Of a stretch of DNA of 64,000 bases, positions 11,492-48,244 are shown piece after piece; within the stretch, counting starts at the first letter, position 1; every line of letters starts with the position of its first letter. The stretch covers positions 34,651,883 through 34,715,882 of the forward strand of contig NC_088789.1 in NCBI RefSeq assembly GCF_949628265.1, written 5' to 3'. This stretch comes from Cloeon dipterum. Lineage: Eukaryota; Arthropoda; Insecta; Ephemeroptera; Baetidae. The translations under genes were made by a program, and so were the position numbers. The notes below the pieces were generated by a model. That model saw only the letters and a list, made by a program, of their open reading frames with translations, did not search any database and was not told where the DNA came from.

Positions 11492-14400
11492 ATGGAAACA
11501 GAAGGAAATTATTTCGCTTACTGTCTGGACGCGAACACCAGATTACATTACTTCATTGTACCATCAGAGTATTTGAATCCAAGACCAAAATCAAGACATT
11601 CGAATCCAGGAGTTGCTTGGGACACTCTTGGACAACATTTCTGGGGAGCTGTGTTGCAATCAGCATGGCATGAATCTTTGGAGGTAGACCCTGACGATGG
11701 GTCTTTCCTGGACCAAAGCCACAAAACTGACAAAGATTTCGAGCACTTGCTGACCGAGGCAGATCACAAAGAATGTCTCGTTCTTGCCACTGCTTCCTCC
11801 GTCGAAGAACTGCAAGTGTTCGTTCAAACGTGCAACATCAAAGTTCCAAAGAATTACAAACGTTTGGATTTTTCTGACGCTTCAGGAAGTCAACAACACG
11901 ACCAGCCGCACCAGGTACGTCAAGAGTTTAATTTCTTTAAAACCACTATTATCAAAAGTATATCTTGATATCTAGTATCGGAAACTTCAGAAAAAATTAT
12001 AAATAAAACATAATTTTCAACGACAATGTTTCAGCAAAACGTGCAATTCGGGAGTAGCGAATCCTATCAGCCAACGAAAAATAAGGATTTCTCAGCGCCC
12101 TCAAAATGCTTGGAAGAGCCAAACTCTACACCTAAAAATGTTCCTACAGGAGCAACTCCTTTCGTTCTGTCATCAGAGGACAAAGATATTGTAATGGAAG
12201 ATCCGATCGAGTCGCATGATGTCTCCGAGAATGACGAAAGAGGTAATTTCTCATTGATGCGTGTTTACTAATAAGATTTCAACCTCCGGCATTACTTGAG
12301 TTCTGTGGAAATAATATTATATTTATTTAACCAAACACCCATTACAGAAATGAATATAATAAATTTACAGTTTACTTGCACAAATCAGAGTAAATGGGAC
12401 CTTCTCGTATTTAAAAAAATGATAGAAATTCACCTATTCATAACAAAACACGCATTTACAATCAATACCGGCCCGGTCTTATTATGATATTACTACCTGT
12501 ACAGTAAACATAGTGATAGTCGTGGCAAGTGTGCCTTGGAGAAAAAATGTCTATTTGGAAAACAGGCATTTTTCCAGCCATGATTGCCCCTGTTCTATCG
12601 CCCATTACCGGAGTGTCATAAAAATCCCTACATCGATCTGGGAGAGCTTGAAAAGTCTGTTTTTAATTAATTAATTAATTAAAAGCAGCAGTCTCTAGAA
12701 GTGAAAACTTTAATGCAGATCATTAAAAACAAAGTTAATGTCAGCTAGCTCGTATGCAAGTGTCTTGATTTCAAGAATTTTGACAAAGCTAAGGCTTTTT
12801 TGACAAAACGAGATTTGGCAAATTCTAACTTATTTAAGTCGGTCAAAGTAAGATTTGGTCAGATTGCTTGTTTGCTGTAACTAGTAATAGGTACTATGGC
12901 TAAGTTGAAAAGCTTTCATGCTGTACTGAAAGATGACTTGGAGATTTTTTTTTTAAATTTGAGGCATAGCGAAAATTGCGGCTCTTAATTTCTTAACCAC
13001 GTATTTGTTAAAAGAAAGGCCTGAGGATGGAAAAGTGACACTCAAATACGATAGTTCTCTAACAAATTCAATATTCTCATTTGTTATCATCATCATCATC
13101 ATCAATGGGTAAATAAACAAAATTTTGAATCTAACTCTTCTTTAATATGACCTTTGTTCCTGAATTTTAAAATTAACATTTGGTCATAATAAATTTGAAT
13201 TCACGTTTGCTAAGGTAAATTGTCAAACAATGCACGAAAACACTCAGATCATCTAAGCAGTAAAAGAGCAAAACAAGGTCATCGGCATAAATTATCAATT
13301 TTGCATTTGGAGCAAAATTTAAGTGGAGGTTGATATCGTTATCACAAATTGATTAAATGAAGAAGAAAGGGGAAATAATGGCTCTTCATTTTTTCCAGAC
13401 GATTCACACATTCGGCCTGAAGGCGTAGCAAATCTTGGATTTTTTGAATCTGAAATAGATGGACGTGTCACCAGACAAAACGCAGACAAGTAATTATCCA
13501 GAGCTATGATCTAATTAAAAACTAATATCGCTCTTTCAAGTGTTTGTGTCCTGGTCATTCACTACGAGTTCAAAAACAATCCTACGTATTTCCGAAAGGG
13601 AGACGCCTGTGACGTAGAAAACCTCAAGACTTCCTTCGGGAAAAACCGGAATTGCAATTTCCGTAACTTTCCGTCACCGGGCAAAAAGACTTTGCTCCAA
13701 CTTCTTGGCGACCAAGAAAAGCTTTTGCAGATGTTCAACGTACAAGGTAAAACACGTTCAAATTAAAATCCTTCAAAATGAATGATAATATTTTTTTTCA
13801 GATGAAGTGCCCTCTGTTTTCATGCTTTTCATTCTCTCTCATGGGTCTGAAAATGGAATAATATGGACCGACCACGTCAAAAGTGAAACCAATGAACGCG
13901 AATATTTCACAACAGATGAAGTCTTTGACTCATTACAGAAGCTACAGAGATTTGACAAATGTTTGAAAATCGTGAATTTTGGGGTAAGTTTCGAAAACAC
14001 AATTTCTTCTATAATTAACATGGTAAAATGTGGGAATCATAAAATATAAAAATATTCATTTTTGTTTCAGTCATGTCGGGGGAAATTGGATGATTCAAAG
14101 TTTGACTTAAAGAAATCATACAAAGACTATGAAAACAAGAATTCGTGTAGAATTTCCACTCGCCCAGGAATGCACAACTATATCGTGTTCTATTCGACAG
14201 TAGAAAGTAATTTTTAACGGCAACGATTGCACTTTCGTTATGTTTATTCTTTAATTTAATATTGTTGCAGCGACATTAGCGAACACTGATGAAAAAGGTT
14301 CATGGTTTGTTAGAAACATCTGCACAAGACTGAACGAAGCTAATGATGAGTCCTTGTTGAAATTCTTCACAATTGTTCAGAATCGAATGCATCAAACGTC

Positions 14401-17400
14401 ACGCACTTTCACAACCTTTGAAAAAAACATTCCATTGGGGCAGACACCAGAGCTCAAAATGTTTCAGCAGGACAGAAAATTCATAATCTCAAAGTTAGTA
14501 AATATAGCGAATTTAATTGAAACAAAAGAAATCCTAGTTGACTCGAAAAAATAATCTTAAGACTCTAGCAAACAGTATAACAGTTAATTGAGAGCTTTTT
14601 TTCAGGGCAAAAATCACAGCACAACCTATCTCCAACCATGATTCCTCGACACCTAATTTGAGCAAAGTCTCAAATGAACGAATGTCTGCAAATTTCTCCT
14701 GGAAATCGGATGAAGAACATAATATCAGGGGTCGTAAAGGTTTCATTTTATCCGTGGTCCAAGGCAAACAAGTGCAAGAAATGAAAAGGGTTCTTCGCAA
14801 ACTAGACTTCGAAATTAGAGACTGGATACTGAGCGGGACATCAATGGATTTCTATTTTAAGATGGGTCAGTATCAAAATTAAACAAAATGTAAGAGCTCA
14901 AAATGGATTAATGCTGGTTTTGCAGTGGCCGAGTTGGAACCGGACGTTGGCTGCATAATGACCTGCATATTGGGCCCTGTGTGTGAAAACGAACACAAGG
15001 AGGTTTGCGTGCGCGTGCAAAAGGGTCAAGATATTCCAATATCGGACATCCTACGCAGTTTGGTCGGCCCAAAAAACGATAAATTGATAGGGAAGCCGAA
15101 AATTCTGTTCGTTGTCAACGTGAAAGCTCCACAAACAGACAATGTAAGCTGTACCCAAACTAATGTAAAATATGAGTTTTTATAAATTTAATTTTTATTT
15201 AGATCACTGTGTCCATGAAAGATTTACAAGTCTCCGCAACAAACCACAGTGGCTGGCTAGTATTGATTCTAAAATATGAAGGTAATGATAAAGTACTTGC
15301 ATGTTTTTGAGGCATTGACAACTAAATTCTGTCACTTAGATGCATTAGAGAAGCTGATTGAAATCTTTGAAAACATCGGTGAGAAAAGCCTGCAAGAACT
15401 TCTGGAGCCTCTGCTAACTCGTGAGTCCAACAAAGAAGACGTGGTTCTTCTTAATTCTACATTGCAATATCTCATCCAATTTCCTACTTGGACAAGAATA
15501 TTTGTAAAACCAGATTTCAAACTTAAAATGACAAAAAATTCCCGGGGGCAAATGATAAGAAATATAAATTCTATGGAATCTCCTTATGAGAAAAAGATCG
15601 ATTTTGATACATTAGTGAAAGAGGCCAAACGATTGTTTGAGGAAAACAAAAAGTCGATAGTGAGTCCGCTTAAGACGATGAGTCGTGTAGAAAATCCAAA
15701 CATTTTGAGCAATGTTGAATCTTCAATACAGTCGCTGCCCGTCAAAAACATAGAATCTACCTCTACAACGAGCGATTCAACTGAAGAAAGCATTTTTTGG
15801 TGCTTTAATTCAGTTGCTGGAGCAGGAAAATCGACTGTATTCGTGGAAATGGCGCACGAACTCACCCAATTTGGCGAAGGGTTTAAAATACTGCTGATTC
15901 CTCTAAAAAAATATTATCGGTACTTATTTGACATGCCAGCTAAGAAAGTGAATGTAATCGAATTCCTCGCTAAGACAACTTTCAATTTTCATGACGACAT
16001 CAAGAACTGGATAATGAAGAGTGAAGTCATTGTTTTCATTGACGGATTTGACGAAGTTTGCCCAGATTTCAGAGAAAAAATCATCAACATTTTGATTGCA
16101 ATAAATAATGCTGGAGTCCCACTCTTTGTCGGAACAAGGCCATACGAAGTGCACCACATTCAAGAGAGGATAAAAAACACGACGATAGTTGAGATCGAAC
16201 CCCTTGATGAAGCAAAGCAAATCGAGTTCCTGCAGACCGTTGCACGAAAGAATGAAAGAGATATCAATCAATTGAGGGAAAACTTCAAAGACAAAGATAT
16301 TCTGGGAAACCCACTCTATCTCAATTTGTTGGCCGAATACAACGGCGATGGAAACTTGTACGAAATCTTTGACACAATAGTGAGGCGAAAAGTAGAAATT
16401 TGCTTGAAGAGAGAAAACGGTGGCAATGATGTTGGAGACGAGACGATTAAAAAATCATTGAAATTCTTACAATTGGTGGCCTCTCGTTTCGTAACAGGAG
16501 TGAAGATCGAAGAAGGCAGTGTTACAAAGGAAGAATTGGAAAAGATCAATGCTTTTGGAGTTGTGACATACTTCAATGAACAAGTCAATTTCACTCACCA
16601 AACGTTTGCAGAATTTCTTACTGCACAAAAATTTTTATACGATTTAAAAAACCCAGGACCTGAAAGTGTTCCCTTGTTCAATGAGGAATTGGCGCAGTGC
16701 AGGAAGTTCGTCGACCTTTTCTTTTCTACGGAGAAGGGGAAGGACGTGACCTACGCAGAGGATTTTGTGGAATGTGCTAAATTAAGCGACCCTGTAAAAT
16801 TACTCAAGCAAATTTGTCGAGAGAATTTGAGCCAAATGTTCAGGTTGCTCAACCCCGATCTCTCGTTAAAAGATGAAGACGGTAAAAACGCTTTGCACTT
16901 CGCTTTGCGGCACCTTGAAATGGTCAAGAAGGTTCACGAAAAGAACAGCAATTTAGCGATCGAAACAACCAAGAATGGAGAAAATTGTCTTCACCTGGCG
17001 ATTGGCGATAACAAATGCAGCGAGGAAGTCGCTATTTGGCTCTTGAAAAACACTGAAGCGGACAAAAACGCTGAAACTGAATTTAAAGAAACACCACTTC
17101 TGCTGGCAGGCTTAACACAAAAATGGGAAGTAGCACGACAACTTTTGTTGTACAATATTGAAATTAATCAAATTGGTTTTTATGGAAAATCAATTTTCCA
17201 CTATGCCGTTTGCTCTAATGATATAGTTTTAGTGCAAGAACTTCTTGATAGGGGCGACATTGTTAATTTTAAAGATTCAAATGGAAACACAGCTCTTCAC
17301 CTAGCTGCTATGTTAAATGAAAACCCTAACATTGTGAATTTATTGCTTGAAAAGGGTGCCAAAGTAAACATAAAGAACAATGGAAAACGAACAGCACTGC

Positions 17401-18827
17401 ATTACGCTGCTGTAAATAACGAAGGTACAGAAGAAGTGTTCCAACAGCTGATTGTATACGACGCCGACGTTAATTCACAAGACGAAGTAGGAAACACAGC
17501 ACTTCATCTAACTAGTGGATGGAATGGAAACCCAGAAAAAGTAAAAATTTTGCTCGAAAAAGGTGCCAAAGTAAACGCACAAAACAATGAAAAATGGACC
17601 GCACTGCATTTTGCCACTAGACATAACCCAGCTTCAGAAATTGTCCAAACGTTGCTGGAAAACGGTGCCGACATTAATTTACAAACTCAATATGGATCAA
17701 CAGCCTTGCACCTAGCAGCCGGGTGGAATAAAAACCCTGAACTAGTGAAAATTTTGCTTGAAAATGGTGCCAAAGTAAACGCACAAGACAATGACAAATG
17801 GACAGCACTGCATCTGGCCGCTAGATATAACCCAGCTTCAGAAATCGTCCAAATGCTACTGGAAAACGGCGCCGACATTAATTCACAAACTCAATATGGA
17901 TCAACAGCCTTTCACCTAGCAGCCGTGTGGAATAAAAACCCTGAAATAGTGAAAATTTTGCTTGAAAATGGTGCCAAAGTAAACGCACAAAACAATGACA
18001 AATGGACCGCACTGCATTTTGCCACTAGAGATAACCCAGCTTCAGAAATTGTCCAAATTTTGCTGGAAAACGGCGCCGACATTCATTCACAAAATAAATA
18101 TGGATCAACAGCCTTGCACCTAGCAGCCGGGTGGAATAAAAACCCTGAACTAGTGAAAATGTTGCTCGAAAAAGGTGCCAAAGTAAACGCACAAGACAAT
18201 GACAAATGGACAGCACTGCATCTGGCCGCTAGATATAACCCAGCTTCAGAAATCGTCCAAATGCTACTGGAAAACGGCGCCGACATTAATTCACAAACTC
18301 AATATGGAACAACAGCCTTTCACCTAGCAGCCGTGTGGAATAAAAACCCTGAAATAGTGAAAATTTTGCTTGAAAATGGTGCAAAAGTAAACGCACAAAA
18401 CAATGACAAATGGACAGCACTGCATATTGCCGCTAGATATAACCCAGCTTCAGAAATTGTCCAAATTTTGCTGGAAAACGGCGCCGACATTCATTCACAA
18501 AATAAATATGGATCAACAGCCCTTCACCTAGCAGCCGGGTGGAACGAAAACCCTGAACTAGTGCAAATTTTGCTGGAAAAAGGAGCCAAAGTAAACGCAC
18601 AAAACAATGACAAATGGACCGCACTGCATTACGCTGCTACACACAACCGACGTCCTGAAGTGGTCCAAAAGCTGCTTGATAAGGGTGCCGAGATAAATGT
18701 AGAAAATGCTCGTGGAGAGACTCCTATATTTCTCGCCGCTAAGCATAATCCAGCGAAAGAAGTTGTTCAAATACTGCTCGAAGTAAATAAAAGGACTAGA
18801 AATGACAAACAATGCACCGTTGTATAA
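11492..18827 (+). CDS. NLR-A: caspase / pseudo-caspase / NACHT / ankyrin-repeat protein
   Basis: Probable cytosolic sensor protease of 1837 residues. Coding exons by GT-AG sites and phase: 11492-11914, 12035-12242, 13399-13489, 13541-13746, 13802-13983, 14071-14206, 14271-14493, 14606-14865, 14926-15143, 15203-15281 and 15340-18827. An upstream acceptor at 11429 and a donor at 11335 suggest a 5' UTR intron. Residues 1-210 match nothing I recognise. Residues 211-489 are a caspase domain with RKGDACDVENL, catalytic His in LSHGSENG (323) and Cys in GSCRG (372), and p10-type DEKGSWFVRNIC. Residues 490-675 are a second caspase-like fold with no His or Cys. NACHT has Walker A AGAGKST (about 835-841), Walker B FIDGFDE (about 908) and sensor FVGTRP. 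A winged-helix-like HQTFAEFL segment precedes about 19 ankyrin repeats (about 1180-1830). The frame stays open through all joins. A poly(A) signal lies at 18868. Domain calls are firm; the immune or cell-death role is inferred. Confidence 0.88.
12700..13345 (-). mobile_element. Decayed LINE reverse-transcriptase relic in NLR-A intron 2
   Basis: On the - strand the sequence encodes the reverse-transcriptase active-site motif in LIIYADDLVLL (YADD at 13290-13279). Further on it encodes a LAIVPITSYSKQAI segment that matches LAIAPIASYGVQVI in the NLR-B intron copy. In-frame stops show it is dead. It lies antisense to the host gene inside intron 2. The rest of the intron, 12243-12700, has only AT-rich sequence and a TTAA-repeat tract near 12664. 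Confidence 0.75.
17520..18640 (+). repeat. 408-bp higher-order ankyrin repeat array in NLR-A
   Basis: Within the last exon, four-repeat ankyrin blocks of 136 residues recur at 408-bp spacing with near-identical DNA; for example 17687-17878 aligns with 18095-18286. Repeats alternate between a DKWTALHLAARYNPASEIVQ type and a YGSTALHLAAGWNKNPELVK type. The low divergence between blocks points to recent unequal exchange or gene conversion within the array. Confidence 0.85.
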
Positions 18828-18867
18828 GGTCAGATGAAAATCAACCTTTAAGTTCTTCAAAGAACTA

Positions 18868-18873
18868 AATAAA
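18868..18873 (+). terminator. Poly(A) signal of NLR-A
   Basis: AATAAA lies 41 bp after the stop codon. It is conserved in the NLR-B 3' flank at 35429-35434 on the opposite strand, in the same context after GTTCTTCAAAGAACT. Confidence 0.75.
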
Positions 18874-18879
18874 AATTAC

Positions 18880-21800
18880 TCTGACCTATTGATAATCAAT
18901 CGTATATTTTGTTAGTAAAAATTTGCGTAAAGAAAATGAGGCAAAGTTGAGGAGGACGATCTTTACGTTACAATGAATTTCGAAGTCGAGAATAATGGCC
19001 AAAAAACTGCACTTTTCGATCAGAATGACACAGGCTCAAATTTTCGCATGCATTCTTTACTTCCACTACTTTTAAATAAAACATAAGAGCTTTTCAATTG
19101 TATATAAAAATAAGTAACTTCATTTAAGTGTAGTTTTGGAGTACTGCTGAACCTATTATGAGTTTTTTATATGACATTAAGAAATAAATAATTAATTACT
19201 GTCTCCATCTAGTAGATCAAGAAGTTGCTTTTTAAGAAATGTAAATGAATTGCTGTTATCTTATTTTTAGTTTTATTGTATTACAGGTTATGTTAAATAT
19301 TGTGTACTTATGTTTAAAATAAAAATGTATTCTTACTGGTTTGTTGTAAAAGATTTGTTAGAATTGTATAATTTTTGCTAACCACTAGGAATGTAGTGAA
19401 AATAGCTGTGGATAATCTAACTTGACCCTTTTGCGTGGGAGTTGTTGTCCATTCAGTTTGGATCGGATAAAATTAAAATATATTGATTTTTACAATAAAA
19501 TTTCAGAGATTTGTTTGCCTGAAAAGGGGTTTCATCCATCATCGCATTACATTATTGATGGAAGAGAGGAATTCAAGAAAATACGAGATGAATAGTTTAA
19601 TATTAGATCCCAGTGTTAACGAGTGGTGTTGCTTCCAACCTAAAAATTGCATCACTTTGTCGACAAGTTCATTCCAGAGGTGCATTATTTGCTGCTGAAC
19701 TGACGTTGCTAATTTCAAAAGCAGTTTTTCGTCAGCCCGATTAAGACAATGGTAGATTTTGCGAACAAACCAAACTCTGCCCTTGGCTATATTGAACCTA
19801 CGAGAAAATCTGCTGGGGTTTGATTGATTGAATACATATGTTAAAGAGCCGTAAAAGTTGACCGCGAGGAAAAGTAACATCAAGCTACACTGTTTGGTTT
19901 GAATCCCTGCTTCCTTATTTTTATTTGCAGCAAAACCCCTTTCGAGATTTTCGCGTTTAGCAACAGATGGAGTGGTGAGTTGGTATAGGCTAAAATGTTG
20001 AGGCCTCACTGTATAGGAAAGTGACGATGGTTCACTTTGTCTCTTGCGCGGTGCCAGAGGATTTTGCTGCTCGTGCTTCGGATCAGCGAAAACAGCGGAT
20101 GCGGAGGGCCATTCCTGTGCTTCAAGTCGAGTAAGTTCATTTCAATACGCGTTTCTTGCAATTAAGAAAACGGAATTTTATTTTAATTATACCGATATTT
20201 GAAAAATATTATTTGCCAGTGCTGAAACCGACCAAAATTAAAAAGATTAGAGCAACGTTGGACTTTGTCTAAAGCGAGTTTTAATTTAATTCATATTTAC
20301 CTTAATTTATTTCTTGCCTGAAATAAAATTAACTCCTTCATTCTAATGGCACGATCTTCAGGCCTTCCATATATTTTCTCCTAGCTTTAAACTCCTGAAT
20401 ACATTTAAAATTGATAAAAAAAATTAGCACGTATTTGGTGAATTTAAGTATTTTTTTAAGTAAACGCCATAAGCCATAAATGAAAGCAGATATACAGACG
20501 GCTGTCCAATTTTTTTTATTTTTCTCGTGCTGAATTTAGCAGTCTGCTTATGAATAAATTATTCTCAACAATTCTAAACAATTCTAAACGTTGCTCGGTG
20601 GCGCCAACAGCGGCGCCGTGAATAAGTGACAGATTCCGCTGACATTTATTTCTAAATTAGCCTTTTATTCGTCTCGTGTCGCACTTGTTGTGGGGCAACG
20701 CGAAAGCTTACAAAAAATTCGAGACGCGCTTAAAAATAACAGACAATCCGAGACTTTTCAGGACTCGGGGAAATGTTGAGGAAAGCATAAACTTACATTT
20801 TTGCTATAGACTCGATTTAAAATAAACAACGATTTCAGATTTTCATTATTTCCAATAATTCACAATAACTTGAATTAAGATTAATAATTTTTACTGTCTA
20901 ATTGTGAGAGAAAATAAAGCAAATGATGAACTTATTCAAAGCTCTGATCAAATAAAGAGAGCGAATTTCGCATTCTAGTTATCGAAGTTAGCTCAATTTC
21001 TTGTTAAAAACGAGAGCAAAAAGGCATGTCAAGAACACAACCCTTTAAACTTTGACAACCCTTGAAGAAAAGCCAGCTCCAGTCGGCCTCCAATGTGCGT
21101 CTCCACCTCTGAGAAGGGAAAAGATCAATTCCAGGACTAGCGACAGGTTAGTAACACTTTTACTTTAAATATCTAGGAAAAATCACCAAAATCAAGCTGC
21201 AACAATTTCACCGTCATTCCCAGGTGACATTTTAATTCATAGAATGCAATAATTAACCATAAAGCTGAAGAGCTCCCATGCATGTAATTATTGAAATAAA
21301 TTTGTAGCAGGCTTAATCAATGTTAAAATAAAATCAAAGTACCAACTAGCGAAATTGAACTTATCTTGATCGAAATACGGGTATTTAAATTTAATTCAAG
21401 TCTTAATTATTTCTTAAATTTTCTGCTCGCTCCGTGCTGATGTTACAAAATTGCATAAAAAATTCCGTTTCCTTGCAAATCCGAGACATTTTTTAATTAA
21501 TTTTTAAAATTATGTTTGCACTTTTGGTGATCTTATTTTTAATCGCGTTATATCAAATTTTAAAAATATATAAATTACTTTACAGTTAATTAAGCATGGA
21601 AATAGGTTACAAAGTACAACTTAAAACCAGATTGTGCAGCTTACTGTCGTCTGCAAACTTGATAAATTACGCATTACGCAATCTAGACAAAGGCTTAATT
21701 TATTAGTATTGACTTATTACAATGGGAAAGTTCCAGCAGTTTTTCTAAAAAAATTTTGAATTTTTAACGTGCTCTAGAATTGATTTTTTATTTTCCTCTT

Positions 21801-26090: not shown

Positions 26091-26230
26091 ATGCAGCGGC
26101 TGTTGCACTCGTCGGCGCCGCTGTCGGCGCCGCCGAACAAGGCGGTGCTCGGAAAGCTGCGGAAAAAGAGCGGCGACACGTCCAGAAAGTGCAAAAAGGC
26201 GCTCGAGAACTGCGGAATCGCTTTGCAAAG
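26091..26230 (+). pseudogene. N-terminal exon fragment of mitochondrial elongation factor Ts, copy 1
   Basis: From the ATG in AGAGGGATGCAGCGG the frame reads a basic, Ser-rich leader (MQRLLHSSAPLSAPPNKAVL) followed by LGKLRKKSGDTSRKCKKALE. That segment matches the EF-Ts N-terminal UBA-like helix pattern (KLRKKTGY...CKKALE) used to bind EF-Tu. A donor-like CAAAG|GTACAA follows, but the frame shifts near GCGGAATCGC compared with copy 2. No later EF-Ts exon (the core that exchanges nucleotide on EF-Tu) is recognisable downstream. It is therefore treated as a captured or decayed gene fragment; a live first exon with remote partners cannot be excluded. Confidence 0.6.
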
Positions 26231-35428: not shown

Positions 35429-35434
35429 TTTATT
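35429..35434 (-). terminator. Poly(A) signal of NLR-B
   Basis: AATAAA on the - strand 17 bp after the stop codon of NLR-B, in the same sequence context as the NLR-A signal. Confidence 0.7.
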
Positions 35435-35450
35435 TAGTTCTTTGAAGAAC

Positions 35451-38400
35451 TTAAAGGTCGATTTTCATCTGACCTAATACAGCGGCGCATTGTTCGTCAT
35501 TTCTAGTCCTTTCATTTACTTTAACACCATGGTCGAGCAGTATTTGAACAACTTCTTTCGCTCGATTACGCTTAGCGGCGAGAAATAAAGGAGTCTCTCC
35601 ATCAGAATTTTCAACATTTATCTCGGCACCTTTATCAAGCAGCTTTTGGATCACTTCTAGAATTTGGTTGTGTTTAACCGCGTAATGCAGTGCGGTCCAC
35701 TTGTCTTGGTTTTGTGCGTTTACTTTGGCACCTTTTTCAAGCAAAGTTTGCACTACTTCAGGGTTTTCATTCCACCCGGCTGCTAGGTGAAGGGCTGTTG
35801 ACCCATCTTGAATTTGTGAATGAATGTCGGTGCCTTTTTCCAGTAACATTTGGACCATTTCTGAAGCTGGGTTATATCTAGCGGCCAAATGCAGTGCTGT
35901 CCAAGTTTTATTGTCTTTTGCGTTTACTTTCGCACCTCTTTCAAGCAAAATTTTTACTTTTTCCGCGTTTTTATTAGAATTAGCAGCCATGTGGAGGGCT
36001 GTCCATCCTTGTTGATCTTGTGCATCAACGTCGGCGCCGTATTCAATCAGCTGTTGGAACACTTCTTCTGTAATTTCTTTATTTTTAGCAGCGTAATGCA
36101 GTGCTGTTCGTTTGTCATCGTCTTGAGTGTTAACTTTTGTTCCTCTTTCAAGCAAAATTTTCACTAGTTCAGGATTTTCATTCCACCCGGCTGCTAGGTG
36201 AAGAGCTGTTGATCCATATAGAGTTTGTGAATGAATGTCGGCGCCGTTTTCGAGCAACATTTGGACAATTTCTGAAGCTGGGTTATATCTAGCGGCAAAA
36301 TGCAGTGCTGTCCAATTTTTATTATCTTGTGCGTTTACTTTCGCACCTTTTTCGAGCAAAATTTTTAATATTTCCGCGTTTTTATTAGAATTAGCAGCCA
36401 TGTGGAGGGCTGTCAATCCTTTTTGATCTTGTGTATTAACGTCGGTGCCGTATTCAATCAGCTGTTGGAACACTTCTTCTGTAATTTCTTTATTTTCGGC
36501 AGCGTAATGCAGTGCTGTTCGTTTGTCATCGTTTTGCACGTTTACCTTTGCACCTTTTTCTAGTAAAATTTTCACTAGTTCGGGGTTTTCATTCCCCGAG
36601 GCTGCTAGCTGAAGGGCTGTTAATCCATTTAGAGTTTGTGAATGAATGTCAGCGCCGTTTTCCAGCAACATTTGGACAATATCTGAAGCTGGGTTATATC
36701 TAGCGGCAAAATGCAGTGCTGTCCAATTTTTATTATCTTGTGCGTTTACTTTCGCACCTTTTTCGAGCAAAATTTTTAATTTTTCCGCGTTTTTATTAGA
36801 ATTAGCAGCCATGTGGAGGGCTGTCAATCCTTTTTGATCTTGTGTATTAACGTCGGTGCCGTATTCAATCAGCTGTTGGAACACATCTTCTGTAATTTCT
36901 TTATTTTCGGCAGCGTAATGCAGTGCTGTTCGTTTGTCATCGTTTTGCACGTTTACCTTTGCACCTTTTTCTAGTAAAATTTTCACTAGTTCGGGGTTTT
37001 CATTCCCCGAGGCTGCTAGCTGAAGGGCTGTTAATCCATATTCAGTTTGTGAATGAATGTCAGCGCCGTTTTCCAGCAACATTTGGACAATATCTGAAGC
37101 TGGGTTATATCTAGCGGCCAAGTGCAGTGCTGTCCATTTTTTATTATCTTGTGCGTTTACTTTCGCACCTTTTTCAAGCAAAATTTTTACTTTTTCCGCG
37201 TTTTTATTTGAATTAGCAGCCTTGTGTAGGGCTGTCCATCCTTGATGTTCTTTTGCATCAACGTCGGCGCCGTACTCAATCAGCTGTTGGAACACTTCTT
37301 CCGTAATTTCTTTATTTTCAGCAGCGTAATGCAGTGCTGTCCGTTTGTAAAGGTCTTGAGTGTTAACTTGTGCTCCTTCTTCAAGCAAAATTTTCACTAG
37401 TTCAGGGCTTTTATTCCACTCGGCTGCTAGGTGAAGGGCTGTTGATCCATATTCAGTTTGTGAATGAATGTCGGCGCCGTTTTTCAGCAACATTTGGACA
37501 ATTTCTGAAGCTGGGTTATATCTAGCGGCAAAATGCAGTGCTGTCCAATTTTTATTATCTTGTGCGTTTACTTTCGCACCTTTTTCGAGCAATATTTTTA
37601 CTTTTTCCGCGTTTTTATTTGAATTAGCAGCCATGTGTAAGGCTGTCCATCCTTGTTGATCTTGTGTATCAACGTCGGCGCCGTATTCAATCAGCTGTTG
37701 GAACACTTCTTCTGTAATTTCTTTATTTTTAGCAGCGTAATGCAGTGCTGTCCGTTTTTCATCGTCTTGCACGTTTACCTTTGCTCCTTTTGCAAGCAAA
37801 ATTTTCACTAGTTCAGGGTTTTTATTCCACCTGGCTGCTAAGTGAAGGGCTGTTGATCCATATTGAGTTTGTGAATGAATGTCGGCGCTGTTTTCCAGCA
37901 GCATTTGGACAATGTCTGAAGCTGAGTTAAAATTAGCAGCCAAATGCAGTGCTGTCCATTTTTCATTGTCTTGTGCGTTTACTTTGGCACCTTTTTCAAG
38001 CAATATTTCCACTATTTCTGGGTTTTTATTCCACCTAGCTGCTAGGTGAAGGGCTGTGGATCCTTCATCATCTTGTGAATTAACGTCAATACCGTATTCT
38101 AGCAGCTTTTGCACCACTTCTGTAGGTTCATAATTTTCACAGGCGTAATGTAATGCGTTTCGGTTTTCATTGTTTTTTATGTTTACTGAGGCACCTTTTT
38201 CAAGCAAAATTTTTACTTTTTCCGCGTTTTTATTAGAATTAGCAGCCATGTGTAAGGCTGTCCATCCTTTTTGATCTTGTGTATCAACGTCGGCGCCGTA
38301 TTCAATCAGCTGTTGGAACACATCTTCTTTAATTTCTTTATTTTCAGCAGCGTAATGAAGTGCTGTCCGTTTTTCATCGTTTTGCACGTTTACCTTTGCA

Positions 38401-41400
38401 CCTTTTTCTAGTAAAATTTTCACTAGTTCGGGGTTTTCATTCCCCGCGGCTGCTAGCTGAAGGGCTGTTGATCCACCTTGAGTTTGTGAATGAATATCAG
38501 CGCCGTTTTCGAGCAACATTTGGACAATATCTGAAGCTGGGTTATATCTAGCGGCAAAATGCAGTGCTGTCCAATTTTTATTATCTTGTGCGTTTACTTT
38601 CGCACCTTTTTCAAGCAAAATTTTTAATTTTTCCGCGTTTTTATTAGAATTAGCAGCCATGTGGAGGGCTGTCAATCCTTTTTGATCTTGTGTATTAACG
38701 TCGGTGCCGTATTCAATCAGCTGTTGGAACACATCTTCTGTAATTTCTTTATTTTCGGCAGCGTAATGCAGTGCTGTTCGTTTGTCATCGTTTTGCACGT
38801 TTACCTTTGCACCTTTTTCTAGTAAAATTTTCACTAGTTCGGGGTTTTCATTCCCCGAGGCTGCTAGCTGAAGGGCTGTTAATCCATATTCAGTTTGTGA
38901 ATGAATGTCAGCGCCGTTTTCCAGCAACATTTGGACAATATCTGAAGCTGGGTTATATCTAGCGGCCAAGTGCAGTGCTGTCCATTTTTTATTATCTTGT
39001 GCGTTTACTTTCGCACCTTTTTCAAGCAAAATTTTTACTTTTTCCGCGTTTTTATTTGAATTAGCAGCCTTGTGTAGGGCTGTCCATCCTTGATGTTCTT
39101 TTGCATCAACGTCGGCGCCGTATTCAATCAGCTGTTGGAACACTTCTTCTGTAATTTCTTTATTTTTAGCAGCGTAATGCAGTGCTGTCCGTTTTTCATC
39201 GTCTTGCACGTTTACCTTTGCTCCTTTTGCAAGCAAAATTTTCACTAGTTCAGGGTTTTTATTCCACCTGGCTGCTAAGTGAAGGGCTGTTGATCCATAT
39301 TGAGTTTGTGAATGAATGTCGGCGCTGTTTTCCAGCAGCATTTGGACAATGTCTGAAGCTGAGTTAAAATTAGCAGCCAAATGCAGTGCTGTCCAATTTT
39401 CATTGTCTTGTGCGTTTACTTTGGCACCTTTTTCAAGCAATATTTCCACTATTTCTGGGTTTTTATTCCACCTAGCTGCTAGGTGAAGGGCTGTGGATCC
39501 TTCATCATCTTGTGAATTAACGTCAATACCGTATTCTAGCAGCTTTTGCACCACTTCTGTAGGTTCATAATTTTCACAGGCGTAATGTAATGCGTTTCGG
39601 TTTTCATTGTTTTTTATGTTTACTGAGGCACCTTTTTCAAGCAAAATTTTTACTTTTTCCGCGTTTTTATTACATTTAGCAGCCATGTGTAGGGCTGTCC
39701 ATCCTTGTTGATCTTGTATATCAACGTCGGCGCCGTATTCAATCAGCTGTTGGAAAACTTTTTCTGTAAGTTCTTTATTGTTAGCAGCGTAATGCTGTGC
39801 TGTCCAATTTATATTGTCTTGCGCGTTTACTTTGGCTACTCTTTCAAACAAAATTTGATCTAGTTCAGGGTTTTCATTTGACCTAGCTGCTAGGTGAAGG
39901 GCTGTTTTACCTTCTTCGTCTTGCAAATTGACGTCGGCACCGTATTCAAGCATCTTTTGCACTATTTCGGTAACTTTGTTATTTTTAAAGGCGTAATGCA
40001 ATGCAGTTCGACTTTTATTGTCTTGTAGGTTTACTTTAGCACCTCTTTCTAGCAAAATATTCACAATTTCAGTGCTTTCATATGACATAACTGCTAGGTG
40101 AAGGGCTGTTATTCCTTCTTCATCTTGTAAATTGACGTCGGCACCGTATTCAAGCATCTTTGGCACTACTTCGGTATTTTTGTTATTTTTAAAGGCGTAA
40201 TGTAATGCGTTTCGATTTTCATTGTTTTTTGTGTTTACTTCGGCACCTTTGTCAAGCAAAATATTCAAAATATCAGGGTTTTCATATGACAAAGCAGCAA
40301 GGTGAAGAGCTGTGTTTCCTTCATCATCTTGTAAGTTAACAATAGAACCCCTATCAAGAAGTTCTTGCACTAAAACTATATTGTCAGAGCCAACGGCATA
40401 GTGCAAAATTGATTTTCCAAATGAATCAATTTGATTAACTTCAATATTGTACAATACAAGTTGTAGTGCTACTTCCCATTTGGCTCTTTGACAAGCCAGA
40501 AGAAGTGGTGTATTTTTACTTTTGGTTTCGGAAATTTTGTCCGCTTCAGTCTTTTGCAAGAGCCACATAGCGACTTCATCGCTGCATTTAATATCGTCAA
40601 TCGCCAGGTGAAGACAATTTTCTCCATTCTTGGTTGTTTCGATCGCTAATTTGCTGTTCTTTTCGTGAACCTTCTTGACCATTTCAAGGTGCCGCAAAGC
40701 GAAGTGCAAAGCGTTTTTACCGTCTTCATCTTTTAACGAGAGATCGGGGTTGAGCAACCTGAACATTTGGCTCAAATTCTCTCGACAAATTTGCTTGAGT
40801 AATTTTACAGGGTCGCTTAATTTAGCACATTCCACAAAATCCTCTGCGTAGGTCGCGTCCTTCCCCTTCTCCGTAGAAAAGAAAAGGTCGACGAACTTCC
40901 TGCACTGCGCCAATTCCTCATTGAACAAGGGAACACTTTCAGGTCCTGGGTTTTTTAAATCGTATAAAAATTTTTGTGCAGTAAGAAATTCTGCAAACGT
41001 TTGGTGAGTGAAATTGACTTGTTCATTGAAGTATGTCACAACTCCAAAAGCGTTGATCTTTTCCAATTCTTCCTTTGTAACACTGCCTTGGTCGATCTTC
41101 ACTCCTGTTACGAAACGAGAGGCCACCAATTGTATGAATTTCAATGATTTGTCAAACGTCTCGTCTCCAACATCATTGCCACCGTTTTCTCTCTTCAAGC
41201 AAATTTCTACTTTTCGCCTCACTATTGTGTCAAAGATTTCGTACAAGTTTCCATCACCGTTGTAATCGGCCAACAAATTGAGATAGAGTGGGTTTCCCAG
41301 AATATCTTTGTCTTTGAAGTTTTCCCTCAATTGATTGATATCTCTTTCATTCTTTCGTGCAACGGTCTGCAGGAACTCGATTTGCTTTGCTTCATCAAGG

Positions 41401-44400
41401 GGTTCGATCTCAACTATCGTCGTGTTTTTTATCCTCTCTTGAATGTGGTGCACTTCGTGCGGCCTTGTTCCGACAAAGATTGGGACTCCAGCATTATTTA
41501 TTGCAATCAAAATGTTGATGATTTTTTCTCTGAAATCGGGGCAAACTTCGTCAAATCCGTCAATGAAAACAATGACTTCTCTCTTCTCAATCCAGTTCTT
41601 GATGTCGTCATGAAAGTTGAAAGTTGTCTTAGCGAGGAATTGGATTACATTCACTTTCTTAGCTGGCATGTAAAATAAGTACCGATAATATTTTTTTAGA
41701 GGAATGAGCAGTATTTTAAACCCTTCATCAAATTGGGTGAGTTGGTGCGCCATTTCTACGATTACGGTCGATTTTCCTGCTCCAGCAACTGAATTAAATA
41801 ACCAAAAAATGCTTTCTTCAGTTGAATCGCTTGTTGTAGAGGTAGATTCTATGTTTTTGACGGGCAGCGACTGTATTGAAGATTGGACATTGCTCAAAAT
41901 TTTGGAATTTTCTACACGACTCATGCTCTTAAGCAGACTCACTATCGACTTTTTGTTTTCCTCAAACAATCGTTTGGCCTCTTTCACTAATGTATCAAAA
42001 TCGATCTTTTTCTCATAAGGAGATTCCATAGAATTTATATTTCTTATCATTTGGCCACGGGAATTATTTGTCATTTTAAGTTTGAAATCTGGTTTTACAA
42101 ATATTCTTGGCCAACTAGGAAATTGGATGAGATACTGCAAAGTGGAATTAAGAAGAACTACTTCTTCTCTTTTGGACTCACGAGTTAGCAGAGGCTCCAG
42201 AAGTTCTTGCAGGCTTTTCTCACCGATGTTTTCAAAGATTTCAATCATCTTCTCTAATGCATCTAAGTGCCAGAATTTATTTGTCAATGCCTAAAAAACA
42301 TGCAAGTATTTTATCATTACCTTCATATTTTAGAATCAATACCAGCCAGCCACTGTGGTTTGTTGCGGAGATTTGTAAATCTTTCATGGACACAGTGATC
42401 TAAATACAAATATAAAAACTATATCATCTATTGCATCAATTCGAGTAAAGCTTACACTGTCTGTTTGTGGAGCTTTCACGTTAACAACGAACAGAATTTT
42501 CAGCTTCCCTATCAATTTATCGTTTTTTGGGCCAACCAAACTGTATAGGATGTCCGATATTGGAACATCTTGACCCTTTTGCACGCGCACGCATACTTCC
42601 TTGAGTTCGTTTTCACACACAGGGCCAAATATGCAGGTCAAAATGCAGCCCACGTCAGGTTCCAACTCGGACACTGTAAAACCAGCATTTATCCATTTTT
42701 AGCTCTTTCATTGTTTAATTTTGATACTCACCCATCTTAAAATAAAAGTCCATGGATGGTCGACTAAGTATCCAGTCTTTAATTTCGAAGTCTAGATTCC
42801 GAAAAACCCTTTTCACTTCTTGCATTTGTTTGCTCTGTACCACGGATAAAATGAAACCTCTGCGACCCCTGATGTCGTGTCCTTCATCCGATTTCCAGGA
42901 GAAATTTGCAGAAAATTGTTTATTTCTGACTCTGCTCTTGTCCTTACGCGCATCAGTGTCTGGAAAAGGTTTTGCTGCGATTTTCGACCTGAAATTGTTG
43001 TTAAGATTCTTTTATACCGCTTGCTAGATTCTTTAGATTTACATGATTTGTCAAGTAGGATTGTTAGTATCGATATTATCCGTTTCATTAGAGAATACTC
43101 ACTTTGAGATAGTGAATTTTCTGTCCTGCTGAAACATTTTGAGCTCTGGTGTCTGTCCCAGAGGAGTGCTGTCAAAGGTCTTGTAATCGCGTGACGTTTG
43201 ATGCATTCGACTCTGAATAATGGTGAAGAATTTCAACAAGGACTCATCATTAGCTTCGTTCAGTCTTGTGCAGATGTTTCTTACAAACCATGAACCTTTT
43301 TTATCAGTGTTCGCTAATGTCGCTGCAACAATATTAAATTAAAGAATAAACATAGCGAAATAAGCAATCGTTGCCGTTAAAAATTACTTTCTACTGTCGA
43401 ATAGAACACGATATAGTTGTGCATTCCTGGGCGAGTGGAAATTCTACACGAATTCTTGTTTTCATAGTCTTTGTATGATTTCTTTAAGTCAAACTTTGAA
43501 TCATCCAAAGACCCCCGACATGACTGAAACAAAAATGAATATTTTTTTATTTTATGATTCCCACATTTCACCATGTTAGTTTTAGAAATAAATGTGTTTC
43601 GAAACTTACCCCAAAATTCACGATTTTCAAACATTTGTCAAATCTCTGTAGCTTCTGTAATGAGTCAAAGACTTCATCTGTTGTGAAAGATTCGTAATCA
43701 TCAGTTTCTTTGTCAAGGTTGTCAGTCCATATTTTTCCATTTTCAGACCCATGAGAGAGAATGAAAAGCATGAAAACAGAGGGCACTTCATCTGAAATAA
43801 TAATTATCATACAATTTGATAATTTTAATTTGAATGCGTTTTACCTTGAGTGTTGAAAAGCTGCAAAAGCCTTTCTTGATCGCCAAGAAGTTGGAGTAAA
43901 GTGTCTTTGTTCGGTGACGGTAAGTTACGGAAATTGCAATTCCGGTTTTTCCCGAAGGAAGTCTTGAGGTTTTCTACGTCACAGGCGTCTCCCTTTCGGA
44001 AATATTCAGGATCATTTTTGAACTCGTAGTGAATGACCAGGACACAAACACTTGAAAGAGCGATATTAGTTTTTAATTAGATCATAGCTCTGGATAATTA
44101 CTTGTCTGCGTTTTGTGTGGTGACACGTCCATCTATTTCAGATTCAAAAAATCCTAGATTTGCTACGCCTTCAGGCCGAATGTGTGAATCGTCTGGAAAA
44201 AATGAAGAGCTGTTATTTCCCCTTTCCTCTTCATTTAATCACTTTGTGATAACGATATCAACCTCATCTTAAATTTTGCTCCCAATGCTAAATTGATAAT
44301 GTATGCCGATGACCTTGTTTTGCTATAAACATATTATGAAAAAGAGCCCAGGTAGCACCAAATGTCACCCAGACATCACTGTGATGTCATACCGAACATC

Positions 44401-47400
44401 ACTATGATGTCTGTATGACATCAGAATATGTCACAGTGATATCATTTTTAGGTACAAATGTCCACTTTTCTCATGTCACTCTGATATCATTTTCTAACAT
44501 CTATCTGACATCACCCTGATGTCAGGGTGATGCCTCCCTTAAATCACCCAGATATCATATAGACAAATGGCCACCGTTGGTGGCCGCCCTGCCCATGGCC
44601 GCCTCGCCCGTGGCCACTGGTGGTGGCCACCTTGCCTGTGGCCGCCGGTGGTGGCCGCCTTGCCCGTGGCCGCTGGTGGTGGACGCCTCGCCCGTGGCCG
44701 CCGGTGGTGGCCACCCTGACCGTGGCCGCTGGTGGTGGCCGCCCCGCCCGTGGCCGCTGGTGGTGGCCGCCTTGCCCGTGGCCGTTGGTGGTGGACGCCT
44801 CGCCCGTGGCCGCTGGTGGTGGCCACCCTGACCGTGGCCGCTGGTGGTGGTCGCCTCCACCATGGCCGCCCTACATGCAGCTGCAGCGCCTTTCCCGTGG
44901 CCGCCGGTCGTGGCCGCCACACCCGTGGTGGCCAGTGGTGGCCGCCTTGCCGCGGCCGCTGGTAGTGGCCGCCTTACTCGCGGCGGCTGCCAGAAATTGC
45001 CTTCTTGCCCATGGCAGCCTGCGATTGCATCTCGAACGATGCTTCCGAAAGTGACGCGTGACAATTCGGGACGGAATAAAATGCAGCATTTTTTCAATTT
45101 TATAGTTGGTTCAATTTTCAATTTTCAGGAATTTCATTCTATACAACTTTTTTAGATTAAGGAAATTCCCTTCATGCTTCCCCACATAATAATAAAGGTT
45201 TAAATTATTAAAATTGATCTTCGAACTATGGAAGATAAATTTTTTTCTGAATATAATATTTATATTTATTATTAAAAAACATGTGAGTGTGCTCAGATTT
45301 AAACATCTAGGTTACCCTACTCAAAAGTAAGAAATCAAACTCAAAAACCCGGATATTTTAGCTCCTCAAGTCACGACTGGTTTACGAGGCGGACAGCGTC
45401 AATGTTGATGACATTGATGACTGGTGGCTCGTCACGTTGCCAGTCTTAGCCTTAAAATAATAATAAAACACAATTAAATTCAGTTCTTTGAACACTGAAA
45501 TATGTAAATAAACATTTTTACTGCATTAAAATTCTTAATTTACACTAAAAAAGTGCGAAAAATTTGACTTACGGCTGCGTTGAAAATGAAGACGGCTGTG
45601 TGCGATCACGTTTGCAGAGGTGTCTACGCTGAAATACAGGAAACTGGCCCCCTGGTCCACATGTCATCCCTCTGAAAGGTTGAAATGGATCTGGGTAGTG
45701 TGCTCGACGTGTTGTTGTCCAAATGAGAAGTGGACATGACGAGCGACAGTATTGATCTCGGGCCACTCAGTCTCACAATCAGCCTAAAACAAAATGCACA
45801 CGCACTAGAGAAACGCCTCAACGTGACGATATTCTAAAAAAATCCCGATCAAAACCTTAAGTTAGACACCAAAACGGGTGTTCAACATTGCGAACATTGC
45901 AAAACATAATCGCTAGAGCCGCTTAACTCACCTTTTGTGATTGCTTGGGACAAAATCTAGATGCTTACGGCCAGAATTGACACCCTGCAGTCTGTAGTTG
46001 CTGCGATTTTAGAACTCCAAGCGGCTTAACCGTCACTTTTTAAACCGCAAAAATTCTTCTATCCGTTGAAAACAACACTATCACACAAAAAACATGGCCG
46101 CGCAACTTCAGTCAGGCTCGCTCGCTCAGCTCGCTGCATGATCGCTGCTGCCGGTGCTGCCGCCTGGTGACCGAGCGCTTGAATGTGAGAAACCGCGCGC
46201 GTCAAATTTTTCTAAGTCCCCATCGCACAGGTCTTGGCTTGCAAGTGGGCCAGAAAATTAAAATTTTCGAAAAATTGTTTCAGATGAGCGCGAATTATTC
46301 ATTTTTAGAACTTTTGAGGCCAGTTTTAATTTTGGACTGTCTGACATCATAGTGATGTCAGACAAACTTCACAGTGATGTCACTCAGATGTCAGAAAATG
46401 AGGTGGGCCAAAAAAATTAAAATTTTCAAAAAATTGTCTCGGATGTGCGCGAATTATACATTTTCTGAACTTTTAAGGCCATTTTTAATTTTCAAGTGTC
46501 TGACATCATAGTGATGTCAAACCAACATCACAGTGATGTCAGCCAGATGTCAGAAATTGATTTTTCAAAATTATTAATTTTTTGAAAAATTCTGACTGGG
46601 TGATCTTTTTAGAGCATAATAGAGTCCCAAAACCTGCTTGGATATCATTTCTCACTTTTAATTTGGATTTTATTGCAAATGTCATTTTCTGATATCACGA
46701 AAGTCAGATTATGACATCATAGTGATGTCTGAGTGATTTTTTGTGCTACCTGGGAGAGCAGCAATTTTCGCCACGGCTAAAATGACCTCCCTCTCAAAGT
46801 CATTCGTTAACACGGCCGTAAAGCTTTTTGATCTTGCAATCGCGCCTATCGCGAGCTATGGTGTGCAGGTGATCTGGCCGCATCTGACACTTAGTGACTT
46901 TGCCAAGTTAGAGTCAGTAAAGTCGAGATTTTTAAAGAGAGCACTTGGCTTATCAAAGTACATGAAATCGAGATTGTCTTACAAACTGGCTCAACTAGTT
47001 TCTTTGAAGATGACTTCGCTGATAGATTTGCTCTTCCTCACACCACAAATTATAATAAATTCATTCCAAAATCAGTGGTTTAAGATTTTCCGGATTGAGC
47101 CGGGGATTTTTCGACACGCCCGCGATGGTTGACCAGAGTAGGAAAGCTGTGTGCTATACAAAACAGGCACGCGCTAACACGTCATGCTTGTCACGGCTTT
47201 CACTATTTACTTTGTAAAATTAAAGAATTTCATACTGAAGCTCTTCCTGGCTGTGTCTGTAAACTTTGTGATAAGAGCATGGAATTCTATCACTTTTTGA
47301 GCTGTGACAAAAATCAGATGAGTCTGACTCAGGCTGAAAAATTGCCAGCCAAATGACTGACCTTATATTTTGTTACTTAATAGAATCTGTTGTTCACTAA

Positions 47401-48244
47401 CTTGTGTTTAATAAACGAATTGATTGATTTCCACAGAACTCGCAAGTAATGCCGGAGATATCTTATTAGCAAACACGCATCAATGAGAAATTACCTCTTT
47501 CGGCATTCTCGGAGACATCGTGCGACTCGATCGGACCTTCCATTACAATATCTTTGTCCTCTGATGACAGAACGAAAGGAGTTGCTCCTGTAGGAACATT
47601 TTTAGCTGTAGAGTTTGGCTCTTCCAAGCATTTTGAGAGCGCTGAGAAATCCTTATTTTTCGTTGGCTGATAGGATTCGCTACTCCCGATTTGCACGCTT
47701 TGCTGAAACATTGTCGTGGAAAATTATGTTTTTTATCATTTTTTTCTGAAGTTTCCTATTCTAGATATCAAGATATACCTTTGATAATAGTGGTTTTAAA
47801 GAAAATAAACTCTTGACGTACCTGGTGCGGCTGATCGTGTTGTTGAGTTCCTGAAGCGTCAGAAAAATCCAAACGTTTGTAATTCTTTGGAACTTTGATG
47901 TTGCACGTTTGAACGAACACTTGCAGTTCTTCGACTGAGGAAGCAGTGGCAAGAACGACACATTCTTTGCTCTCTGCCTCGGTCAGCAAGTGCTCGAAAT
48001 CTTTGTCAGTTTTGTGGCTTTGGTCCAGGAAAGACCCATCGTCAGGGTCTACCTCCAAAGATTCATGCCATGCTGATTGCAACACAGCCCCCCAGAGATG
48101 TTGTCCAAGAGTTACCCAAGCAACTCCTGGTTTCAAAATTGTTGCTTTTGGTCTTGGATTCAAATACTCTGATGGTACAATGAAGTAATGTAAACTGGTG
48201 TTCGTGTCCAGACAGTAAGCGAAATAATTGCTTTCTGCTTGCAT
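35451..48244 (-). CDS. NLR-B: caspase / pseudo-caspase / NACHT / long ankyrin-repeat protein
   Basis: Paralogue of NLR-A, predicted 2943 residues. Coding exons (5' to 3'): 48244-47822, 47702-47495, 44192-44102, 44050-43845, 43791-43610, 43523-43388, 43322-43103, 42988-42732, 42673-42456, 42399-42321 and 42262-35451. Phases and nine of ten short-exon lengths equal NLR-A or differ by one codon, and the joined frame is open. The caspase dyad His323 (LSHGSENG) and Cys372 (GSCRG), Walker A GAGKST (about 834-839), Walker B FIDGFDE and FVGTRP are all intact. The second caspase-like region keeps PISDILYSLVGPKNDKLIGK but has GPV where HG is expected and VNVKAP where the QACRG motif should be. About 51 ankyrin repeats fill residues about 1180-2930. 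Intron 2 (44193-47494) carries a LINE relic and a nested transposon. The gene is convergent with NLR-A. Function as an immune or death sensor is inferred from domains. Confidence 0.88.
35690..39790 (-). repeat. 411-bp higher-order ankyrin repeat array in NLR-B
   Basis: Four-repeat blocks of 137 residues recur at 411-bp steps (for example starting at 36235, 36646 and 37057). Larger duplications sit on top: 37745-37930 matches 39182-39367 (shift 1437 bp, 14 repeats) and 36923-37245 matches 38771-39093 (shift 1848 bp, 18 repeats), with almost no differences. This implies recent unequal crossover within the exon, always in multiples that keep the frame. Confidence 0.9.
44262..44342 (+). mobile_element. 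LINE reverse-transcriptase fragment (YADD) in NLR-B intron 2
   Basis: The + strand reads NFAPNAKLIMYADDLVLL then a stop; YADD is at 44302-44313. It is the counterpart of the NLR-A intron relic and is cut off from its 3' half by the transposon at 44347-46754. Confidence 0.75.
44347..46754. mobile_element. Non-autonomous terminal-inverted-repeat DNA transposon
   Basis: Ends are CCCAGGTAGCAC and GTGCTACCTGGG, and the imperfect inverted repeat extends about 33 bp. An AGAG duplication flanks both sides (44343-44346 and 46755-46758). Within about 200-400 bp of each end there are many copies of short palindromes of the type TGACATCATAGTGATGTCA, which could be transposase-binding sites. No transposase frame is visible. 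The element splits the LINE relic and is absent from NLR-A intron 2. Superfamily not assigned. Confidence 0.8.
44577..44990. repeat. 28-bp GC-rich minisatellite
   Basis: About nine clean units of the type GGTGGTGGCCGCCTTGCCCG plus TGGCCGCT run from 44619 to about 44870, with degenerate units on both sides. A 28-bp period is not a multiple of three, so open frames on all strands here arise from composition and cycling of frames. It lies inside the transposon in NLR-B intron 2. Confidence 0.85.
46759..47431 (+). mobile_element. LINE 3' fragment in NLR-B intron 2
   Basis: The + strand encodes LFDLAIAPIASYGVQVIWPH, typical of the region after the reverse-transcriptase active site in non-LTR elements, then KSRFLKRALGLSK. 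After a frame change it encodes a zinc-knuckle-like CKLCDKSMEFYHFLSC. The 3' end AATAAACGAATTGATTGATTT resembles a LINE tail. It continues the YADD fragment at 44262-44342 and is antisense to NLR-B. Frameshifts show it is dead. Clade not assigned. Confidence 0.75.

Follow-up and report, generated by a model that had tools for sequence, protein, structure and literature searches.

A 64,000-nucleotide (nt) stretch of the genome of Cloeon dipterum (Insecta; Ephemeroptera; Baetidae), hereafter the window, carries two genes, A and B, in which an N-terminal domain, a caspase, a catalytically dead second caspase, a NACHT/winged-helix region and an ankyrin array follow one another in the same order on a single chain. 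The window lies on contig C4 (NC_088789.1 of GCF_949628265.1; C4:34651883-34715882); the assembly totals 190 Mb in 10 contigs, five of them 33-43 Mb long. Joining the exons gives an open frame of 1837 codons plus a stop for gene A and of 2943 codons plus a stop for gene B, with GT-AG borders at 10 of 10 introns in each gene and no stop at any exon join (Table 1). The first-pass annotation, made from the letters of the window alone, had proposed two intact 11-exon genes of just these lengths with caspase, pseudo-caspase, NACHT and ankyrin domains in one order, and the spliced models, together with Pfam matches over cut-off for the caspase and ankyrin domains, bear it out on both points. We consider it fairly probable that each gene encodes a single-chain immune receptor resembling the NOD-like receptors (NLRs), whose own caspases would be brought together by oligomerisation.

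From exon 3 to exon 11 the introns of both genes (introns 3-10) are each 51-114 nt long, which leaves little space for a second promoter between the caspase and NACHT, and the caspase block and the NACHT-ankyrin exon are predicted to share one transcript.

Domains of the encoded proteins

The Pfam scan covered the whole gene A protein and the gene B protein to residue 1316. In both, the first caspase domain exceeds the cut-off for Peptidase_C14 (E values in Table 1), and the same family was matched by all 8 of the family members scanned (E <= 0.01). A search of the PDB with an 8-member family profile led to caspase-3/7 (best E 1.3e-11), with nearly the full domain covered. Residues were compared across 21 genes, namely A, B and 19 further loci, with reference to R64, Q161 and R207, which we take to be the residues of the caspase-3 S1 pocket that hold Asp. 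All 21 retain both catalytic residues (His and Cys), the Arg next after the Cys and the R64-equivalent Arg. The catalytic machinery thus appears intact, but cleavage after Asp is not to be assumed, because other residues of the substrate pocket are altered.

The second domain was recognised through its family profile. When a 10-member profile was compared with the PDB, caspases came out on top (best E 9.2e-6), and of the 117 sequences matched at E <= 10 the 60 listed were all caspases. In the two alignments listed, Val takes the place of the catalytic His, and the Cys position is occupied by Gln or Val in the family. We take this domain to be a pseudo-caspase, that is, a predicted caspase fold without the catalytic residues.

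Exon 1 encodes a domain of 141 residues, of which 24 copies were found in the genome, all 24 located 2.4-6.0 kb upstream of a NACHT domain on the same strand. Since these 24 copies stand against 103 NACHT loci, the N-terminal domain marks a subfamily. Nothing convincing was retrieved for it from Pfam, where 16 such domains were scanned, or from PDB sequences (best E 0.018 and 0.66, respectively), and a confident model of the gene B copy (mean predicted local distance difference test, pLDDT, in Table 1) had no significant match among known folds.

The NACHT region carries a Walker A motif, a DGxDE-type Walker B motif (DGFDE) and the winged-helix motif FxHxTFxEF. NACHT was matched at E <= 0.01 in each of the 15 family members that were scanned (the two genes and 13 loci; best E 6.6e-13), and in a six-frame search of the genome it scored 27.8 bits in gene B and 26.1 bits in gene A (27.2 with its neighbours), both being counted as over the cut-off. 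A model of the helical-NACHT-winged-helix region, of moderate confidence, has NLRC4 as its closest fold, then NLRP3 and other NLRs. Neither NB-ARC nor CARD was among the Pfam matches of the two proteins, and a cross-match to NB-ARC was seen in 4 of 15 family members (best E 2.6e-5). A genome search with PF00931 gave two matches, both at NACHT loci of this family, and no Apaf-1, although genes split into exons can escape such a search. It had also been proposed that the chain lacks an adaptor domain, and indeed no CARD, Death, DED or PYD was found in the Pfam scans of the two proteins and of the 16 N-terminal domains. Elsewhere in the window, a piece of the family's winged-helix region (51478-51591, minus strand; 74% identical, E 6e-13) is probably a relic copy.

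The ankyrin arrays match Ank_2 over the Pfam cut-off (E 1.2e-136 in gene A; 4.5e-14 in the scanned part of gene B), and parts of them are near-identical. In gene B, 171 residues recur with 100% identity in protein and 99.8% in DNA, while in gene A neighbouring blocks of 136 residues are 95.6% identical; the remaining block pairs of both genes are less alike. Blocks of gene B are 30-96% identical in a fixed 137-residue register, a spread that arises because the register slips. Among 48 repeats of 34 residues (35-residue repeats were left out), the most variable positions are 8, 9, 28, 31, 32 and 34. These belong to the exposed loop and first-helix positions that ankyrin repeats usually use in binding. 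An identity above 85% over 100 residues, which the near-identical stretches of both arrays reach, has been used as a mark of fungal NLR repeats and is attained by only 0.8% of metazoan repeats (PMC4986451; here and below, sources with PMC numbers are cited from excerpts).

The family across the genome

The first-pass annotation presented A and B as a pair; both genes are real, but they are two of at least 86 loci at which a caspase lies just upstream of NACHT. Altogether 103 NACHT loci were considered, 101 from a main search that scored 106 of 119 candidates and two from a further search whose matches were listed in part. Two of the caspase searches, in which 150 of 256 and 150 of 261 candidates were scored, gave 274 and 263 matches, likewise listed in part. 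A same-strand caspase match no more than 4.5 kb upstream is present at 86 or more of the 103 loci. Among the matches listed, an opposite-strand caspase within 4.5 kb occurs at 0 of 103 loci; when the reach is widened to 9 kb and caspases lying downstream are counted too, 10 of 103 loci have one. Of the 17 loci without a caspase match at least one (C4:35283010) has the family's N-terminal domain upstream, so 86 is a minimum. The family is clustered, with 75 of the 101 NACHT matches of the main search falling in two chromosome regions, C4 past 29 Mb and the first 4.8 Mb of C2.

The exon structure is conserved as well. A spliced aligner was used to map the gene B protein to gene A as well as to 20 loci around the best NACHT matches; every splice site of gene A was recovered, and a homologous set of introns was present in 19 of the 20 further loci. 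The introns at residues 241, 310/311, 371, 416 and 674 agree in phase throughout the 19 loci, that at residues 487-497 does so in 18 and that at 575 in 17; the intron at 648-653 is in phase 0 in 14 of 19. By domain, the intron between caspase and pseudo-caspase has the same phase in 18 of 19 loci and the intron before the NACHT exon in 19 of 19. The twentieth locus (C1:9155645) is without the caspase block and was left out of the family comparisons; it is the genome's best NACHT match, lies outside this caspase-NACHT-ankyrin family and has no caspase match upstream.

Across the 21 genes the caspase, dead caspase and NACHT domains diverge together, as their distance matrices correlate with r of 0.92-0.96, a value reached in 0 of 5000 permutations. 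Ratios of nonsynonymous to synonymous substitution rates (dN/dS) were computed for 20 genes, gene B being left out, and of the 190 pairs only those with dS of 0.05-0.9 were kept. The medians were 0.32 for the caspase (38 pairs), 0.40 for the pseudo-caspase (36) and 0.41 for NACHT (35), within a range of 0.14-0.92.

The genome also holds caspase matches without a NACHT partner, including a cluster at C5:27147932-27160033, and one CARD match. A COX1 search gave one fragment below the cut-off and no mitochondrial contig. The arginine kinase encoded in the genome supports an arthropod host: among solved single-domain enzymes its top scores are with those of decapod crustaceans, ahead of horseshoe crab and spider, although two entries matching in two stretches rank above all of these. 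Searches for relatives outside the genome confirmed none by NACHT or caspase in viral contigs and had no match in phage records; plasmids yielded one weak NACHT match (26% identity), and bacterial and archaeal genomes one cyanobacterial contig with a NACHT match (24% identity). Nothing in these searches pointed to phages or bacteria as the source.

Within the window, genes A and B form the outer parts of an inverted duplication. Their gene regions are 88-93% identical in DNA. The two inner arms, with 6.3 kb of spacer between them, share 100% identity in their innermost 1753 nt. The repeat formed by these arms looks like a palindrome undergoing gene conversion, or else like an inverted duplication of recent date. 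A direct repeat in pieces (24755-29883 and 52137-56647, 82-91% identical) gives part of the palindrome spacer a second copy to the right. The extra DNA of about 2 kb in gene B intron 2 would be an insertion; in the stretch that makes gene B longer, at about 44560-45060, there is a GC-rich repeat of GGCCACCACC-like units, with six exact units in 44500-45100. By eye, frames at 19539-20141 (minus strand) and 34417-34728 (plus strand) resemble a degenerate caspase p10 exon, a likeness unsupported by tblastn at 1e-3. A single complete 5S rRNA gene at 3005-3123 (plus strand; 113.9 bits) is the sole Rfam match in the window.

Table 1. Features of the window, with positions counted from its first letter
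Feature	Position	Strand	Remarks
Gene A	11492-18827	+	11 exons, 1837 aa; spliced frame, splice sites recovered independently
Gene A exons	11492-11914, 12035-12242, 13399-13489, 13541-13746, 13802-13983, 14071-14206, 14271-14493, 14606-14865, 14926-15143, 15203-15281, 15340-18827	+	
Gene A exon 1, N-terminal domain	11492-11914	+	
Gene A caspase, exons 4-7	13541-14493	+	His in LSHG, Cys in SCRG, GSWF; Pfam C14 E 5e-20
Gene A pseudo-caspase, exons 8-10, into start of exon 11	14606-15281	+	Family profile matches caspases
Gene A NACHT ATPase	15816-16241	+	Genome match C4:34667698-34668123
Gene A ankyrin array	16887-18827	+	68-aa (204-nt) higher-order repeat
Gene B	35451-48244	-	11 exons, 2943 aa; spliced frame
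Gene B exons	48244-47822, 47702-47495, 44192-44102, 44050-43845, 43791-43610, 43523-43388, 43322-43103, 42988-42732, 42673-42456, 42399-42321, 42262-35451	-	
Gene B exon 1, N-terminal domain	47822-48244	-	AlphaFold2 (AF2) mean pLDDT 85.5
Gene B intron 2	44193-47494	-	3302 nt vs 1156 nt in gene A
Gene B caspase, exons 4-7	43103-44050	-	Pfam C14 E 4e-15; catalytic dyad kept
Gene B pseudo-caspase, exons 8-10	42321-42988	-	Family profile matches caspases
Gene B NACHT ATPase	41361-41786	-	Genome match C4:34693243-34693668; model closest to NLRC4/NLRP3
Gene B ankyrin array	35451-40715	-	137-aa (411-nt) higher-order repeat
Left inner arm of inverted duplication carrying A and B	18802-23989	.	Matches in pieces; 12 arm-piece pairs, 88-100% complementary
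Right inner arm of same duplication	30308-35500	.	Matches in pieces
Third family member, ankyrin end	58324-63999	-	Enters from right edge; NACHT just outside window, C4:34716872

Proposed mechanism and rival explanations

Such a receptor would work as follows. The ankyrin array would recognise a ligand or a guarded host protein, and recognition would free the NACHT switch to form an oligomer, as in NLRC4 or the Apaf-1 apoptosome. The oligomer would gather the caspases of the same chains, and their proximity would turn them on, with no adaptor of the CARD, pyrin or death-domain type involved; the output would be cell death or immune signalling. With a death protease, an inactive copy of it, a switch and a variable recognition array apparently all on one chain, no adaptor would be needed to link sensing to killing. 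The dead second caspase would most likely pair with the active one or regulate it from within the chain, much as cFLIP-L acts on caspase-8 as a catalytically dead partner.

Several results pull the other way. The first-pass annotation had named a profile search of the joined proteins as a check; C14 and Ank came out over the Pfam cut-offs, as did NACHT in the six-frame search, but the whole-protein scan left NACHT at 22.6 bits in gene A (E 1e-4) and 25.7 bits in gene B (E 1.2e-5), below the cut-off of 26.7, and across whole-protein scans gene B falls 0.4-1 bits and gene A 4 bits short. NLRP3, the nearest solved sequence (E 1.4e-4, through the DGFDE region and the winged-helix motif), is reached by summing two weak stretches with single-stretch E values of 0.94 and 5.9, and the model of the NACHT region has a pLDDT of 63.5, with much of the core at 70-88. 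Taken singly, only 3 of 10 second-domain members match C14, and a profile-profile comparison of the first and second caspase domains with hhalign gave no direct relation. One frameshift was needed by the aligner in 5 of 19 loci, and simple joining of the exons ran into a stop at 337-423 codons for five of the 19 and at 865 codons for one more, so some family copies may be pseudogenes or badly modelled. Single pairs also reach a dN/dS of 0.92, and between A and B the ratio runs by domain from 0.25 to 1.27, the latter in the N-terminal domain, on few changes.

The substrate pocket itself lends some weight to the idea that the first caspase is dead as a protease and that both caspase folds serve as interaction or oligomerisation modules on an ankyrin scaffold. 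Gly stands in for the Q161-equivalent residue, the Gln of QACRG, in 21 of 21 genes; at the R207-equivalent position 8 genes have Arg and the other 13 have Thr (12) or Ser (one); and the Trp of GSWF is kept in 14 and lost in 7. With two of the three Asp-holding residues changed, the domain may be a caspase with another specificity or with weak activity. Complete loss of protease function nonetheless seems unlikely to us in view of the His, Cys and flanking Arg kept throughout and the low median dN/dS of the caspase (38 of 190 pairs). In a further rival view, the caspase part and the NACHT-ankyrin part would come from two neighbouring genes that are retained together in head-to-tail orientation. 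The NACHT-ankyrin exon consists of a single long frame that could stand alone, yet the very short introns, the conserved intron phases on both sides of the pseudo-caspase and the lack of stops at the joins of A and B make this view highly improbable. That the assembly itself created the pair, as a false inverted duplicate, might be suspected from the identity of the inner arms, but this is scarcely credible when the genes themselves are only 88-93% identical in DNA, their arrays differ in length and a caspase match also lies upstream of at least 84 other NACHT loci. We also doubt that the proteins serve development, protein turnover or self recognition and not immunity, given the size and clustering of the family and the near-identical ankyrin repeats, a pattern described for fungal NLRs in the excerpts of PMC4986451.

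Beyond the single-chain receptor that we favour lies a broader and more tentative reading, in which an arthropod could have swapped the sensor-adaptor-protease inflammasome for a large, fast-evolving, one-piece repertoire that combines a caspase of non-standard specificity, a dead partner, NACHT and an ankyrin array reshuffled like the repeats of fungal non-self receptors.

Comparison with known systems

NLRC4 and NLRP3, the inflammasome proteins closest in sequence and fold, share with A and B a NACHT ATPase with a DGFDE Walker B motif and the winged-helix motif FxHxTFxEF. They differ in that here ankyrin repeats replace leucine-rich repeats and the caspase is part of the chain, where inflammasomes recruit it through CARD or PYD; the CARD, PYD or other death-fold adaptor domain of an inflammasome sensor was not found in the proteins and N-terminal domains scanned. 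Apaf-1, an NB-ARC protein, is set apart by the NACHT domain of A and B and by the absence of NB-ARC and CARD from their Pfam matches. Caspase-8 and cFLIP-L are separate proteins with death-effector domains; they resemble the present arrangement in pairing an active with a dead caspase, and differ in that here both are on one chain. Strict metazoan NLRs, as described in the excerpts of PMC11508797, have C-terminal leucine-rich repeats, and since A and B have ankyrin instead they are NLR-like and not NLRs in the strict sense.

The first-pass annotation had held that Drosophila-type insects lack NACHT NLRs, which would make such genes notable in an arthropod. NACHT is indeed absent in Drosophila and C. 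elegans (PMC2575513), but arthropods at large do have it, as NACHT homologues have been published in Bombyx, Culex and Daphnia (PMC5062602) and an NLR in shrimp (PMC12370184). In its excerpts, a 2024 survey gives arthropod NLRs without an N-terminal effector and places arthropods outside the phyla with a possible inflammasome (PMC11508797). With its effector built in, the caspase-NACHT-ankyrin family would be a counterexample. No report of such a chain in an arthropod was found in the open-licence PMC literature.

Elsewhere there are partial precedents. Amphioxus has LRR (leucine-rich repeat)-caspase and TNFR-caspase hybrids, which likewise join a receptor straight to a caspase and bypass the hub adaptor; they are a partial precedent for receptor-caspase fusion, and the excerpts name no NACHT-with-caspase, dead caspase or ankyrin among them (PMC2575513). 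Bacterial STAND (signal transduction ATPases with numerous domains) NTPases can also carry a caspase as N-terminal effector (PMC8195603), although the bacterial similarity to this family is confined to the weak NACHT matches given above (cyanobacterial contig and plasmid). In one fungal isolate, caspase, NACHT and ankyrin domains are jointly listed as enriched, without a shared chain being stated in the excerpts (PMC5915685). Fungal NLRs, among them protease-NLRs of which some have a CHAT caspase-like domain, share the order of enzyme, NACHT and ankyrin and an internal repeat identity above 85%, and the Podospora reference genome has 77 NLR genes (PMC4986451, PMC12881547). Unlike these, the family described here has an animal-type caspase with a dead caspase in tandem, and an N-terminal domain without a convincing Pfam or PDB sequence match.

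Arthropod NACHT genes, receptor-caspase hybrids, and fungal and bacterial protease-STAND fusions are thus known, as far as the excerpts go (PMC5062602, PMC12370184, PMC2575513, PMC12881547, PMC8195603); what we regard as new is an NLR-like STAND receptor that has an animal caspase and a pseudo-caspase built into it. Such genes offer a natural one-component system in which to ask if NACHT oligomerisation alone activates a caspase, and what role a pseudo-caspase plays in cis. They also bear on whether animals, like fungi, diversify their receptors through near-identical ankyrin repeats.

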